Source of the DNA: Sphingobacteriaceae bacterium
GTDB taxonomy: Bacteria > Bacteroidota > Bacteroidia > Sphingobacteriales > Sphingobacteriaceae
DNA length: 64,000 bases
Assembly (NCBI GenBank): GCA_029266635.1
Contig: JAQSWM010000007.1
Span: 1 to 64,000 of the forward strand
Direction of reading: 5' to 3'
Below the pieces are notes generated by a model, which did not search any database, was not told the DNA's origin, and worked only from the letters and a program-made list of their open reading frames with translations. This document shows, one piece after another, positions 14,592 to 20,201 of the stretch (position 1 is the stretch's first letter; every line of letters starts with the position of its first letter). The position numbers were made by a program, and so were the translations under genes.

Positions 14592-14945
14592 CTATAAATC
14601 TAAAATCACTTTCAGTGCGCTTACAATAGGCTCACGATATTCTTTGTCCAGGCTTCCTAACCGAGACTTGATCTTTCTATTGTCCACCGTTGTTAACTGG
14701 TCGATAACTGCAAAGGAGATTTTTTCTAAGCCATTTGTCTCTGTTGGCAATATCTTGTAACGCAGTAAAGAGGTCTTTTCATATGATTGCGAAGAAAGTG
14801 GTATAACAATGGTAGAAGGATGATTGACCTTGTTCAACCCGTTTGTTTGTATTACAAGTGCAGGGCGTATTTTGCCTGACATTGTACCTCTTGCAGGATT
14901 AAAATCAATGAGGCAAATATCAAGGCGGCTAATAGTCATCGTCAA
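14592..14945 (-). CDS. MazF/PemK-family toxin (mRNA interferase)
   Basis: A 117-residue type II toxin. The N-terminal part reads RLDICLIDFNPARGTMSGKI followed by RPALVIQ, the conserved MazF/PemK front where DLNPTRGSE-like sequence and RP[AV] mark the RNA-binding face; later come TIVIPLSSQ and ISFAVIDQLTTVDNRKI. The family cleaves mRNA at short sequences. It overlaps the upstream antitoxin gene by 17 bp, a typical translational coupling. It sits 3 bp before rsgA, so readthrough into rsgA-dtd is likely. Confidence 0.88.
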   Translation of the reverse strand: MTMTISRLDICLIDFNPARGTMSGKIRPALVIQTNGLNKVNHPSTIVIPLSSQSYEKTSLLRYKILPTETNGLEKISFAVIDQLTTVDNRKIKSRLGSLDKEYREPIVSALKVILDL

Positions 14946-15174
14946 AATCGCTTGTATACGCGTTACTTATCTCTTCATTAATCCGCAAAGATTCATCTCT
15001 AACCAACATGGATTCATACGCTAACTGACGCTCCACCTTTTTACGATTAAGAATGTTGATGTACGTTTCGATTGCATTCTTTATAAATCCATTTCGGCTT
15101 ATTTTGGACTCTTTTGCTGTTACTTCTGCTTTAGCAAAGAGCTCATCATCGAGTTTCAATAATATACTTTTCAT
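14929..15174 (-). CDS. Ribbon-helix-helix antitoxin of the MazF-like toxin
   Basis: An 81-residue protein with an N-terminal ribbon-helix-helix DNA-binding domain (KSILLKLDDELFAKAEVTAK, then SRNGFIKNAIETYI) and an acidic C-terminal tail ending SDFDDDY, which would wrap the toxin. It is first in the operon and overlaps the toxin gene. Such antitoxins repress their own promoter, and the AT-rich repeats at 15185-15220 just upstream are a plausible operator. Confidence 0.87.
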   Translation of the reverse strand: MKSILLKLDDELFAKAEVTAKESKISRNGFIKNAIETYINILNRKKVERQLAYESMLVRDESLRINEEISNAYTSDFDDDY

Positions 15175-15239: not shown

Positions 15240-15272
15240 TTTGCAGAAGCAAAAATTTACTGCTTACTTTAC
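15240..15272 (+). promoter_or_regulatory. Possible thr operon promoter
   Basis: TTTG at 15240-15243, a 21-bp spacer and TACTTTAC at 15265-15272, which matches TAnnTTTG except at the last two bases. It would place the transcription start about 40 bp before the leader peptide at 15321, which suits the attenuator downstream. Confidence 0.33.
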
Positions 15273-15320
15273 GCCGTCGTCAGAAAGATGGCAGAATAAA
15301 TGATTTTTAATTCAACAACA

Positions 15321-15368
15321 ATGACCATGACTACTACCACCGGGCGAACTTCGGAGGAGGGTATCTAA
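15321..15368 (+). CDS. thr operon leader peptide (Thr-rich)
   Basis: A 15-codon open frame reading MTMTTTTGRTSEEGI followed by TAA. Six codons are Thr (ACC/ACT), five of them within the first seven, and the last is Ile. This parallels the Thr- and Ile-rich leader of the E. coli thr operon. It lies between a candidate promoter and a strong terminator 70 bp before thrA. Ribosome stalling on the Thr codons when charged tRNA-Thr is scarce would decide which RNA hairpin forms. Confidence 0.78.
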   Translation: MTMTTTTGRTSEEGI

Positions 15369-15406
15369 TGGCATAAAAAACACATAAACCATAAGCGCCT
15401 TCCTCC
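15353..15406 (+). promoter_or_regulatory. Antiterminator hairpin of the thr attenuator
   Basis: The segment GGAGGAGGGT (15353-15362) at the end of the leader-peptide frame can pair with GCCTTCCTCC (15397-15406), ten pairs including two G-U. The second strand is the left arm of the terminator, so the two structures exclude each other. A ribosome stalled on the Thr codons leaves 15353-15362 free and favours this pairing; a ribosome that reaches the stop codon covers it and favours the terminator. Confidence 0.68.
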
Positions 15407-15430
15407 ACAAGAGGAAGGCGCTTTTTTTTT
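15393..15430 (+). terminator. Attenuator terminator upstream of thrA
   Basis: A perfect 13-bp stem (AAGCGCCTTCCTC with GAGGAAGGCGCTT), a 5-base loop CACAA and a T run, ending 8 bp before the thrA ATG. No gene ends here, so the terminator must act on the thr operon transcript itself. Confidence 0.88.
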
Positions 15431-15438
15431 GAAAAAAA

Positions 15439-17904
15439 ATGAAAACTTTAAAATTCGGCGGTACATCAGTTGGCTCGGTTCAGAGCATCCTCACTTTGTT
15501 GGATATTATGAAAAAAGAAGCAGCTACGGGAACGAATCCTGTAGTTGTTCTATCGGCAATGAGCGGTGTTACCAACCTGCTATCGGCGATGGCGGAGCAG
15601 GCTGCTTCCGGAAATAGTTTCGCCGACGAGCTTGCAGAATTAGAGTCACGCCATTTTGAAGTGGTCAAAGCACTGCTGGATGTGCAAAAGCAGAACCCGG
15701 TTTTTACCAGGTTGAAGCTATATTTCAATGAGCTCGAGGACTTGTTGCAGGGCATTTTCAGCTTACGCGAGTTAAGTCCGCGTTCTAAAGATTTAGTTCT
15801 TAGCTACGGAGAACGTTGCTCAGCACTCATGGTTAGTAAAATTGCGGAGCAGCACCTTTCGGATGTAGTTTACCTGGATGCATCGGAGGTAATTAAAACC
15901 GACAGCAATTTTGGGCATGCACGTGTGCAAACTAAAATTACCGACTTGCTCATCCAGAATTTTTATCGTGAAAACGAAGGCAAGCTTATTATCGTAACCG
16001 GATTCATAGCCAGCAACAACGATGGACGGATTACCACTTTAGGTCGGGGCGGTAGCGACTACACAGCCGCAATAATCGGCTCAGCTTTAAACAGCAGCGA
16101 AATCCAGATCTGGACAGACGTAAACGGCATGATGACTGCCGATCCGCGGATGGTCAAAAAGGCTTTCCCGCTTACCGAGCTGTCTTACACCGAGGCAATG
16201 GAGCTTTCCTTCTTTGGAGCGAAGGTGATTTATCCGCCAACAATGGCCCCCGCGTTCCTGAAAAAGATCCCAATCGTTATCAAAAATACTTTTGATGCAG
16301 AGTTCCCCGGAACTGTTATCCGCCACGATTGCGCTCCTTCAAACCTGCCGATAAAAGGTATTTCTTCGATGAATGATATCAGTATCATCAATTTGCAGGG
16401 CAGCGGAATGGTGGGCAAAGCGGGCTTCAGCGGAAGGCTCTTCTCGTTGCTTGCCCGTGAGCAGATCAATGTTATTTTAATCACCCAATCATCGTCAGAG
16501 CACAGCATCACATTTGCTATCAATCCGGCTGATGCCATACGTGCGCAGAAGCTTATTGAAACTGAGTTTGAGCTTGAGCTTCAGGCATTAAAATTAGATA
16601 AACCTGAAATCGAAGATGGTTTGTCTATCCTGGCGATTGTCGGCGAGAACATGAAGCAAACTCCGGGTATTTCCGGCACGCTGTTCCATGCGCTTGGGCG
16701 GAACGGGGTGAATGTGCGGGCTATCGCACAGGGCTCTTCAGAATACAATATTTCAGTAATCCTGTCCAATACTGACCTTGCAAAAGCGCTCAACGCCGTC
16801 CACGACGCCTTCTACACTGATCTTAAAAAGAACCTGAATATTTTCTGTCTTGGCACCGGCAATATCGGTACCACGCTTTTCCGCCAGATACAGGAACACA
16901 GCGCCTTTTTGCAGGTTCAGAACGGGGTGATGATCAATGTCATCGGCATCAGCAACAGCCGTAAAATGCTATTCAACCAAGGTGGAATCTCGCTGGAAAG
17001 CTGGAAAGATCAGTTGAATGATAATGGCGAACAAGCAAATCTGAGCTCGTTTATCGCAAGGATGAAAGAAATGAATCTTCCCAACGCCATCCTTGTAGAT
17101 AATACTGCCAGTTTGTTGCCGATAGATTTTTATGCGGATGTGTTCCGCTCAAATATCTCGGTTGTGACCTGCAACAAGATCGGCAACTCGTCATCCTACA
17201 ACCAGTACAAAAACTTTAAAGACCTTGCTTTTTCTCACGGCGTAGATTTTTATTACGAGACAAATGTGGGAGCAGGGCTGCCTATCGTCCGAACATTAAA
17301 GGATTTAATGATTAGCGGCGACCGGATCATCAAGATCGAGGCGATACTTTCCGGTACCATTTCCTTCATCTTCAATAACTTTAAAGGCGATGTAACTTTC
17401 CACGATGTGGTTAAGCTTGCACAGGAAAAGGGCTACACTGAACCCGACCCACGCGATGATCTTCGCGGAACAGACTTTATGCGTAAAATGCTGATCCTGG
17501 CCCGCGATGCCGGTCACGTGCTTGAGCCTAAAGAGGTGGAAATAGAAAGCATGTTGCCATCTGCTTGTGTGAATGCGGCAAGCGTAGAAGATTTCTACCA
17601 GGAACTGCAAAATAATAATGCCTTTTTTGAGAACCTGAAGTCGCAAGCTGCTGCTTCTGGAAAAGTATTGCGGTATATCGGAATACTGGCAGATGGGAAG
17701 GTTTCTATCTCGCTGCAAATGGTAGATGAGAGCCATCCTTTTTACACACTTTCGGGAAGTGACAACATCATTTCTTTTACCACCGAACGGTACAAGGAGC
17801 GCCCGCTGGTTGTGAAAGGGCCTGGGGCAGGAGCAGAGGTTACGGCTGCCGGAGTATTTGCCGACATCGTAAACGTGGGTGCACAGTATCCAAATTATTT
17901 CTAA
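15439..17904 (+). CDS. thrA: Bifunctional aspartokinase / homoserine dehydrogenase
   Basis: Catalyses the first and third steps from aspartate to homoserine. The 821-residue fusion starts with the aspartokinase motif KFGGTSVGSVQ, with GRGGSDYTAAII later in the kinase domain. Two ACT regulatory regions follow (about 310-450: GMVGKAGFSGRLFSLLARE, and TPGISGTLFHALGRNGVNV, which is the usual site of threonine feedback). The homoserine dehydrogenase domain begins near residue 470 with the NAD-binding CLGTGNIGTTLF and contains YETNVGAGLPIVRTLKDL and the GYTEPDPRDDLRGTD catalytic segment. It is first in the thrABC operon and sits directly behind the attenuator. Confidence 0.97.
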   Translation: MKTLKFGGTSVGSVQSILTLLDIMKKEAATGTNPVVVLSAMSGVTNLLSAMAEQAASGNSFADELAELESRHFEVVKALLDVQKQNPVFTRLKLYFNELEDLLQGIFSLRELSPRSKDLVLSYGERCSALMVSKIAEQHLSDVVYLDASEVIKTDSNFGHARVQTKITDLLIQNFYRENEGKLIIVTGFIASNNDGRITTLGRGGSDYTAAIIGSALNSSEIQIWTDVNGMMTADPRMVKKAFPLTELSYTEAMELSFFGAKVIYPPTMAPAFLKKIPIVIKNTFDAEFPGTVIRHDCAPSNLPIKGISSMNDISIINLQGSGMVGKAGFSGRLFSLLAREQINVILITQSSSEHSITFAINPADAIRAQKLIETEFELELQALKLDKPEIEDGLSILAIVGENMKQTPGISGTLFHALGRNGVNVRAIAQGSSEYNISVILSNTDLAKALNAVHDAFYTDLKKNLNIFCLGTGNIGTTLFRQIQEHSAFLQVQNGVMINVIGISNSRKMLFNQGGISLESWKDQLNDNGEQANLSSFIARMKEMNLPNAILVDNTASLLPIDFYADVFRSNISVVTCNKIGNSSSYNQYKNFKDLAFSHGVDFYYETNVGAGLPIVRTLKDLMISGDRIIKIEAILSGTISFIFNNFKGDVTFHDVVKLAQEKGYTEPDPRDDLRGTDFMRKMLILARDAGHVLEPKEVEIESMLPSACVNAASVEDFYQELQNNNAFFENLKSQAAASGKVLRYIGILADGKVSISLQMVDESHPFYTLSGSDNIISFTTERYKERPLVVKGPGAGAEVTAAGVFADIVNVGAQYPNYF

Positions 17905-17939: not shown

Positions 17940-18875
17940 ATGAAAGAATCAATAAAAGTTTTTGCGCCTGCAACGGTGGCTAACGTGGTCTGCGGATTTG
18001 ATGTCCTTGGTTTTGCCGTGAATGAGCCCGGCGACGAGGTGATCATGCGCCGGACTGATAAAGATGGTGTGAGCATTTCAAAAATAACCGGCGACGATGG
18101 ACGCCTGCCGCTTGATGCCGGAAAAAATACGGTTAGCGCAAGCGTGCAGCACTTCCTGAAGTACATCGGACGAGAGGATGTTGGAGTGGAAATAGACCTG
18201 CATAAAAAAATGCCAATCGGAAGTGGGCTTGGCTCCAGCTCTGCCAGCACTGTTGCGGGTTTGTTCGCCATCAATGAACTGCTCGGTAAGCCACTCGGTG
18301 TCAAAGAGCTTTTACCGTTTGCGATGAAAGGCGAGGAGCTTGCCTGCGGCTACGGGCACGCCGATAATGTTGCTCCGGCTTTGTATGGTGGCTTCGTGCT
18401 CATCCGTAGCTACGAGCCACTGGATATTATCCGCCTGCCGCACCCGAAGGATTTATATGCCGCAATCGTTTTTCCGCAAGTTGATGTCCCAACCCGCGAT
18501 GCCCGGCAAATGATCCGCAGCAAAGTGCTATTAAAGGACGCCGTTGTGCAGTGGGGAAATGTTGCGGGATTGGTGAGCGGGCTTTTTATGAACGATATTG
18601 ATCTGATTGGGCGGAGCATGAAGGACGTCATTGTGGAGCCGGTGCGCTCGATTCTCATCCCGGATTTCTATAAATTAAAAGAACTGGCGCTTGAATGTGG
18701 TGCGGTAAGTTTCGGCATTTCCGGCTCAGGGCCATCAGTATTTGCATTTGCAAAAGATCCGCAGGTAGCTGAAAACATCAACGAAAAAATTAAGCAACAC
18801 CTTTCATCATTGAACATCGGCAGCATTTCGTATGTGTCGGCAATTAATGATGAAGGTCCGAAAACAATTGGTTAA
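17940..18875 (+). CDS. thrB: Homoserine kinase
   Basis: A GHMP-family kinase, 311 residues, that phosphorylates homoserine with ATP. The ATP loop is PIGSGLGSSSASTVAGL at about residues 92-108. The N-terminal APATVANVVCGFDVLGFAV and the C-terminal GAVSFGISGSGPSVFAFA are the other two GHMP motifs. It is 35 bp after thrA and 18 bp before thrC. Confidence 0.97.
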   Translation: MKESIKVFAPATVANVVCGFDVLGFAVNEPGDEVIMRRTDKDGVSISKITGDDGRLPLDAGKNTVSASVQHFLKYIGREDVGVEIDLHKKMPIGSGLGSSSASTVAGLFAINELLGKPLGVKELLPFAMKGEELACGYGHADNVAPALYGGFVLIRSYEPLDIIRLPHPKDLYAAIVFPQVDVPTRDARQMIRSKVLLKDAVVQWGNVAGLVSGLFMNDIDLIGRSMKDVIVEPVRSILIPDFYKLKELALECGAVSFGISGSGPSVFAFAKDPQVAENINEKIKQHLSSLNIGSISYVSAINDEGPKTIG

Positions 18876-18893
18876 TCACAACTCACACCCAAA

Positions 18894-20201
18894 TTGATAC
18901 TCTACAGCACCAATAATCCGGATTTGTCGGTTCCTTTTAAGGAAGCCGTTTTCAATAGCTTGCCGCAGGATAAGGGTTTATATATGCCACAGGTTATCCC
19001 GTTATTACCCGAAGATTTTATTGAAAACCTGGACAAATACTCGCTTCGGGAGATTGCCTTTAAGGTGGCATCTGCTCTTTTACAGGATGTTATTCCAGCT
19101 GATGACCTGAAAGCGATTATAGAAGATGCTATCAATTTTCCTGCTCCAGTGGTGAAGCTGGAGGATGGCACGAATGTGCTGGAGCTTTTCCACGGTCCGT
19201 CACTTGCATTCAAAGATTTTGGTGCGAGGTTTATGAGCCGGGTGATGGGTTATTTTCTCAAAGAAGGCGAAAAGCAATTGGATGTGCTGGTTGCCACTTC
19301 GGGCGATACCGGAGGCGCAGTTGCGCTGGGCTTTTTAGGCGTGCCTAATACTCGTGTGACAATCTTATATCCCAAGGGAAAGGTTAGCCCGATACAGGAA
19401 CTGCAGCTCACCACAAACGGACGGAACATCAGAGCTGTTGAGATAGACGGCACTTTTGACGACTGCCAGGCGTTGGTGAAACACGCTTTTACAGATGATG
19501 AACTGAATCAGAAGTTCCGCCTCACCTCTGCCAATTCTATCAACATCGCAAGGCTCATTCCGCAAACCTTTTACTATTTCAATGCTTATGCGCAACTACT
19601 TCGTGAAGGCAAAAAAGATGTGGTTTTTGCAGTGCCCAGCGGAAATTTCGGAAATATAGGAGCGGGTTTGTTGGCTTACAAAATGGGGCTTCCGGTAAAA
19701 CAGTTCCTTGCAGCTACAAACGTAAATGATACCGTTCCTGCATTTCTAAGAACCGGCATTTACGAACCTAAGCCTTCTGTTCAGACCTGGTCAAATGCCA
19801 TGGATGTTGGCAATCCCAGCAATTGGGTGCGCATCATGGATATGTTTAGCGATGATCCGGATGAACTTAAAAAGATACTTACCGGCTATAGCTTCACAGA
19901 TGATGAAACGGTTTATGCCATACACTACATCTTCAAAAAGAACAACTATGTAGCCTGCCCGCATACTGCTATCGCCTGGATGGCAGCAAAGGAATGGAAA
20001 GAACAAAATCCAACGGATGAAGTAGTGTTTTTATCCACCGCACATCCGTGCAAGTTCCCGGAAGTATTTACAGAAGAAATAGCTCAGGCCATAGAAATAC
20101 CGGAGCAGGTAAAGGAATTAGAAGAACGGCAGAAGCATGCGGTGGCACTTGGAAGTGATTTCGAATCGTTTAAAGAGTATTTGCTGAACGAGCTTGTCTA
20201 A
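18894..20201 (+). CDS. thrC: Threonine synthase
   Basis: A PLP enzyme that converts phosphohomoserine to threonine, the last step of the operon's pathway. It is 435 residues, with the PLP lysine Lys107 in GPSLAFKDFGARF, the phosphate-binding ATSGDTGGAVALG and LTSANSINIARL. Translation must start at the TTG at 18894 (reading MILYSTNNPDLSV), because the frame is closed by a stop codon at 18873-18875 and the normal N terminus YYSTN aligns here. It is the end of thrABC. Confidence 0.96.
   Translation: MILYSTNNPDLSVPFKEAVFNSLPQDKGLYMPQVIPLLPEDFIENLDKYSLREIAFKVASALLQDVIPADDLKAIIEDAINFPAPVVKLEDGTNVLELFHGPSLAFKDFGARFMSRVMGYFLKEGEKQLDVLVATSGDTGGAVALGFLGVPNTRVTILYPKGKVSPIQELQLTTNGRNIRAVEIDGTFDDCQALVKHAFTDDELNQKFRLTSANSINIARLIPQTFYYFNAYAQLLREGKKDVVFAVPSGNFGNIGAGLLAYKMGLPVKQFLAATNVNDTVPAFLRTGIYEPKPSVQTWSNAMDVGNPSNWVRIMDMFSDDPDELKKILTGYSFTDDETVYAIHYIFKKNNYVACPHTAIAWMAAKEWKEQNPTDEVVFLSTAHPCKFPEVFTEEIAQAIEIPEQVKELEERQKHAVALGSDFESFKEYLLNELV

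Follow-up and report, generated by a model that had tools for sequence, protein, structure and literature searches.

The thrABC operon of a Sphingobacteriaceae genome is preceded by a short region that is rich in threonine codons and can fold in alternative ways, raising the question of whether the operon is governed by attenuation of the kind known from E. coli. We addressed this question in a 64,000-nucleotide stretch of contig JAQSWM010000007.1, hereafter the window. A preliminary description had read the region as an E. coli-type attenuator made of leader peptide, antiterminator and terminator. Conservation and covariation support that reading, and judged from sequence comparison the leader is very probably a ribosome-mediated threonine attenuator of thrABC.

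Anatomy of the leader and its operon

All features are on the plus strand unless stated otherwise. Directly 3' of the leader, the genes follow in the order thrA-thrB-thrC and all three exceed their NCBIfam cut-offs: thrA (15439-17904; bifunctional aspartate kinase/homoserine dehydrogenase I; NF006959, 1022 bits for a cut-off of 726), thrB (17940-18875; homoserine kinase; TIGR00191 and NF002288, both above cut-off) and thrC (18894-20201; threonine synthase; TIGR00260, above cut-off). Upstream of the leader, a candidate promoter is predicted at 15240-15272, where TTTG (15240-15243), a 21 nt gap and TACTTTAC (15265-15272) resemble the Bacteroidota -33/-7 pattern. More generally, TAnnTT(T/A)(G/C) is found at most 75 nt 5' of the leader in 105 of 155 family leaders and in 29 of 155 shuffled sequences. 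Immediately 5' of the thr leader and transcribed divergently, a region of the minus strand (14592-15173) encodes a 117-aa small protein without NCBIfam match and a short gene ahead of it, an arrangement that looks toxin-antitoxin-like by eye.

The leader peptide frame, MIFNSTTMTMTTTTGRTSEEGI, spans 15300-15368 and comprises 22 codons, eight of them Thr, with the stop codon UAA at 15366-15368. Its start is predicted by homology. The preliminary description had proposed a 15-codon frame with six Thr codons starting at 15321; this shorter frame (15321-15368, MTMTTTTGRTSEEGI) exists as part of the longer one, in which 15321 is an internal ATG. Because the leaders of relatives match the longer frame in length (20-27 codons) and in their N-termini (MFNTSIITITTTTTTG.., MILISSTTITTTTTTR.. 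and MIFNTSIITTIIITTG..), 15300 is the most likely start. The control codons occupy 15315-15341, with Thr at 15315, 15318, 15324, 15330, 15333, 15336 and 15339 and Met at 15321 and 15327; the eighth Thr codon, at 15348, is outside this block. The final Ile, singled out earlier, is given no role, since it lies beyond both the run and the control codons.

The intrinsic terminator proposed earlier within 15321-15430 is real. It extends over 15394-15430 and consists of a 12 bp stem (15394-15405/15411-15422), a CACAA loop (15406-15410) and a run of 8-9 U (15422-15430) finishing 8 nt before thrA. The segment 15353-15430 folds into this terminator at -25.5 kcal/mol (z = -4.4), and none of 200 shuffles folded as well.

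Pairing between 15353-15362 (GGAGGAGGGU, the antiterminator 5' arm, hereafter strand 2) and 15397-15406 (the 3' arm, hereafter strand 3, which overlaps the 5' arm of the terminator) is equally real and comprises eight Watson-Crick and two G-U pairs. When the terminator 3' arm is left out, this helix forms together with an inner helix between 15368-15371 (AUGG) and 15389-15392 (CCAU), at -21.2 kcal/mol (z = -4.3). The two exclusive structures of the preliminary description are thus both retained, and two pairings are added to them: the inner antiterminator helix and a protector stem. In the latter, formed in the leader alone at -15.7 kcal/mol, 15321-15344 (strand 1) pairs with 15350-15374. The protector fold of the window leader is no better than shuffles (z = -1.1) and as a single sequence is unconvincing; the case for it comes from the fold together with strand coevolution (see below).

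A start-like/stop-like string, AUG-GUG-UAA, follows GGAGGAAG at 15368-15376. Homologous strings (AUGGUGUAA/AUGUUGUAA) are found in relatives, the AUGGUGUAA-like motif being the counterpart of the inner helix 5' side, and the string is conserved whatever the leader frame. We explain it as part of the inner antiterminator helix and of the protector stem; a minimal ORF is a conceivable alternative.

Conservation and coevolution of the alternative pairings

Regions upstream of thrA were gathered from named contigs and from whole genomes across the family and phylum. Among named organisms, the closest relatives belong to the Sphingobacteriaceae genera Paradesertivirga, Pedobacter, Arcticibacter, Mucilaginibacter and Daejeonella. 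A Thr/Ile-rich leader with a terminator at most 90 nt downstream was found in 155 of 159 distinct pooled upstreams, and all 155 distinct upstreams of orthologous thrA in the family show the same layout. The other four (loci L027-L030, one from another family) precede divergent thrA genes that are 48-49% identical. The conserved core of the family leader reads GGAGGA/AUGGUGUAA/ACCAU/CCUUCCUCC and includes the two-helix antiterminator. Of 1000 dinucleotide-shuffled versions of the upstream region, three attained the density of Thr/Ile codons seen in the frame, which is conserved in every orthologue. Between close pairs, substitutions in the codon block number 618 at first, 1536 at second and 3095 at third positions, the second-position changes including Thr/Ile exchange (ACN to ATN); this bias to third positions is as expected of a translated Thr/Ile run.

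A locus from another family (L111, thrA 61% identical) has a degenerate leader with few Thr codons and several Met codons (MTTIMSIM), and its terminator resembles that of the family. Methionine shares the homoserine branch with threonine.

To align the hairpins, a covariance model was built with the terminator helix alone from 35 representatives and then used to align 77 sequences; it replaced a MAFFT alignment in which the terminator 3' arms stood out of register. Across the 77 sequences, 87.4% of terminator cells are paired and two-sided changes occur at 11 of 12 pairs, amounting to 107 two-sided cells compared to 35.3 in shuffles, with all slid registers far worse. On this alignment, fitted to the terminator only, the antiterminator helix is 87.5% paired, with 20 two-sided cells compared to 7.0 in shuffles; on four of five measures none of 500 shuffles did as well, and the true register was the best of all slid ones.

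Coevolution was also assessed by an alignment-free swap test, which compares pairing with an organism's own strand to pairing with strands borrowed from other species; neither the swap nor the shuffle controls model phylogeny, and the following values are to be read with that limit. Strand 2 pairs with its own strand 3 at -12.8 kcal/mol, compared to -11.0 kcal/mol for swapped strands (0 of 2000 permutations), and the inner antiterminator helix gave 15 of 2000, or 34 of 2000 on representatives. For strand 1 as a whole leader against strand 2 with its flank, the result was 0 of 5000 permutations in both sets, while a truncated strand 1 gave no signal. Swaps of strand 1 with strand 3 and with the region upstream of strand 3, in which phylogeny is the same as in the protector test, were null as well.

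Sequences without the common form of strand 2 give a further view of coevolution. GGAGG is absent from strand 2 in 26 of 76 sequences; in these, the own strand 2 pairs with the terminator arm at a mean of -13.9 kcal/mol and the consensus strand 2 at -10.0 kcal/mol, the own strand being better in 19. In one example (L180) the values are -20.8 and -5.4 kcal/mol. Thus, in clades with a completely changed terminator arm, strand 2 was rewritten together with that arm. The preliminary description had looked to close relatives for its leader frame and both pairing arms, and these are conserved there; the alignment it called for likewise yields compensatory changes in both hairpins and conserved Thr/Ile codons with mostly third-position changes.

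A proposed mechanism, its alternatives and its precedents

Ribosome-mediated attenuation depends on translation following RNA polymerase closely at the transcript's 5' end. In the proposed mechanism, a ribosome would translate the 22-codon Thr-rich frame as RNA polymerase is still transcribing the leader. A shortage of charged tRNA-Thr would stall the ribosome within the Thr run, leaving strand 2, about 11 nt past the run, free. Strand 2 would then pair with strand 3, aided by the inner AUGG:CCAU helix, which would prevent the terminator and allow transcription of thrABC. With ample threonine, a ribosome reaching the stop codon at 15366-15368 would cover strand 2 and the terminator would form. 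If the leader is not translated at all, strand 1 (the codon region) would pair with strand 2, again freeing the terminator to form. Stalling, transcription-translation coupling and the response to threonine are what we infer from this anatomy; that a ribosome in the run exposes strand 2 and one at the stop covers it is likewise deduced from known ribosome footprints. The spacing agrees with both positions: from the last codon of the run to the start of strand 2 the median is 12 nt (10-90%: 8-15; window 11), and the median distance from the start of strand 2 to the end of the stop codon is likewise 12 nt (window 16).

Three other readings were weighed and rejected on the coevolution of strand 2, the negative Rfam results and the matched codons. 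The GGAGGA(AG)-AUG string could be a Shine-Dalgarno-like translational element, with the leader frame incidental, comparable to the extended Shine-Dalgarno described for rpsU of many Flavobacteriales (PMC9976891). The combination of GGAGGAAG and AUGGUGUAA is indeed very common in relatives. However, in most of the sequences without GGAGG, strand 2 matches the altered terminator arm (CGGGG:UCCCG, AUCGGGAGC:GCGUCCCGAU) and not the anti-Shine-Dalgarno, pheA leaders carry GAGCCGGGACU in place of the GGAGGA element, and the AUG of the element sits 70 nt upstream of thrA, which makes this reading very unlikely.

It is similarly improbable that the leader is constitutive, its terminator blocking upstream read-through or fixing a basal level while the Thr codons go unsensed: coevolving antiterminator and protector pairings are not expected of such a leader, and the leaders of pheA, hisG and ilv genes also have pathway-matched codons. 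Switches between antiterminator and terminator are also common to T-boxes, riboswitches and RNA-binding proteins, any of which could in principle act on the same hairpins. We consider this extremely unlikely, as neither the window nor any of 12 loci gave an Rfam match at threshold, T-box included, and the in-frame conservation of the codons comes with spacing that suits a stalled ribosome.

The attenuator reading places the leader close to E. coli thrL, with which it shares a Thr-rich leader peptide, three alternative pairings, an intrinsic terminator and, next in line, the bifunctional thrA of thrABC. The thrL leader mixes Thr and Ile codons, as do many relatives of the window leader, whereas the run in the window consists of Thr and Met without Ile. 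Compared to the E. coli family RF00506 (Thr_leader), the GGAGGA/ACCAU core with its accompanying motifs and the two-helix antiterminator are peculiar to the Sphingobacteriaceae leader. RF00506 itself aligned over its full length at 15301-15428 with 23.8 bits, below the gathering threshold of 55; its E-value of 0.012 was the lowest among the Rfam families listed for the window.

The preliminary description held attenuation to be scarcely studied in this phylum. This is fair, but the subject is not unknown: transcriptome data from Flavobacterium psychrophilum revealed structured regions 5' of amino-acid operons, with hints of leader peptides (PMC9723704). That work concerns the same phylum and the same kind of operon, but a member of the Flavobacteriaceae, and its main text contains no thr leader or detail of mechanism. 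Leader-like sORFs have been described in B. thetaiotaomicron (PMC7366714), and the Bacteroidetes motif Bacteroid-trp was marked as probably cis-regulatory (PMC2864571). A survey of classical attenuators across bacteria (Lopatovskaya et al., 2010, as represented by its citation in PMC4833913) covers the same mechanism and may already list Bacteroidota genes. In the openly accessible literature searched, no thr attenuator is described in Bacteroidota. Because its Rfam match falls below threshold and leader-peptide attenuation has been studied before, the Sphingobacteriaceae thr leader is an uncatalogued RNA family that very probably works by a known mechanism, and not a new kind; as such, it could be added to annotation pipelines.

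Sister leaders and a second leader design

A model search of 41 related genomes returned strong matches at thrA only, and the weaker full-length matches included other attenuators; genes beyond thrA were named by reading their products. More specifically, we found His-rich leaders before hisG (L234, MFTQFHHIHHHTTTDSSGG; L235), an Ile/Val leader before ilvA (L236, MKNLSTIITVIIIIVVILHT), an Ile leader before ilvE (L239) and aromatic-codon leaders before pheA (L237, L240, L243 and L244). Two further weak matches (L242 and L245) were discarded as ordinary terminators with no matching leader.

Nearly every pheA (prephenate dehydratase; L246-L271) is preceded by a Phe/Tyr/Trp-rich leader, for example MKFTYAYFYGYFYYTSESRG, with a terminator. 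The antiterminator of the pheA leaders is GAGCCGGGACU/AGUCCCGG, and coevolution of its inner helix gave 6 of 5000. The genome of the window has its own pheA leader (L253) and its own His-rich hisG leader (L282). Bacteroidota ribosomes mostly disregard Shine-Dalgarno sequences, and with thr and phe attenuators conserved family-wide, and further ones at ilv and his genes, transcription-translation coupling in this phylum becomes directly testable by simple reporters.

Among branched-chain genes, Ile/Val/Leu-rich leaders with terminator-like hairpins precede the ilvA and ilvE genes named above and two ilvD genes (L302 and L312, the latter with an Ile/Val/Leu leader and terminator). Most ilvD genes have none directly upstream, in several cases because the end of an ilvE-like gene precedes them, and no leader was found at leuC.

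Outside the family, many thrA leaders follow another design, in which the Thr codons are followed by an ACCCC(UUA)GGGGU hairpin that holds the stop codon, and then by ACAUAUAAUCC (L118, L119, L122, L123, L125, L128, L133, L197-L199, L202, L204, L207, L213 and L030). These leaders have no G+C intrinsic terminator; ACAUAUAAUCC is conserved in many, and the outer pairs of the hairpin vary together (UACCCC/GGGGUA, CAACCC/GGGUUG). An inverse ACGGG..CCC hairpin lies at the stop codon in L028, L115 and L124. No Rfam family reached threshold for the thr members of this design.

The stop-codon hairpin is a stranger lead than the canonical thr attenuator. Bacteroidota might conceivably use two designs of leader-peptide control throughout the phylum, one canonical and the other a stop-codon hairpin without a G+C-rich terminator, the second being a distinct ribosome-sensed switch that acts via Rho, translation or weak A+T hairpins; we put this forward tentatively and regard it as rather doubtful. 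If true, the stop-codon-hairpin design, at thrA in other families and at hisG in this family and genome, would be a distinct kind of switch. The hisG leaders of the window's own family (L278-L296) carry an analogous stop-codon hairpin, AUCGCC/GGCGAU, together with an GUAUGUUUCUACGUGAAAC element and no clear U-tract terminator; in their second element, GUUUC..GAAAC is changed to GUUUU..AAAAC in two genomes.
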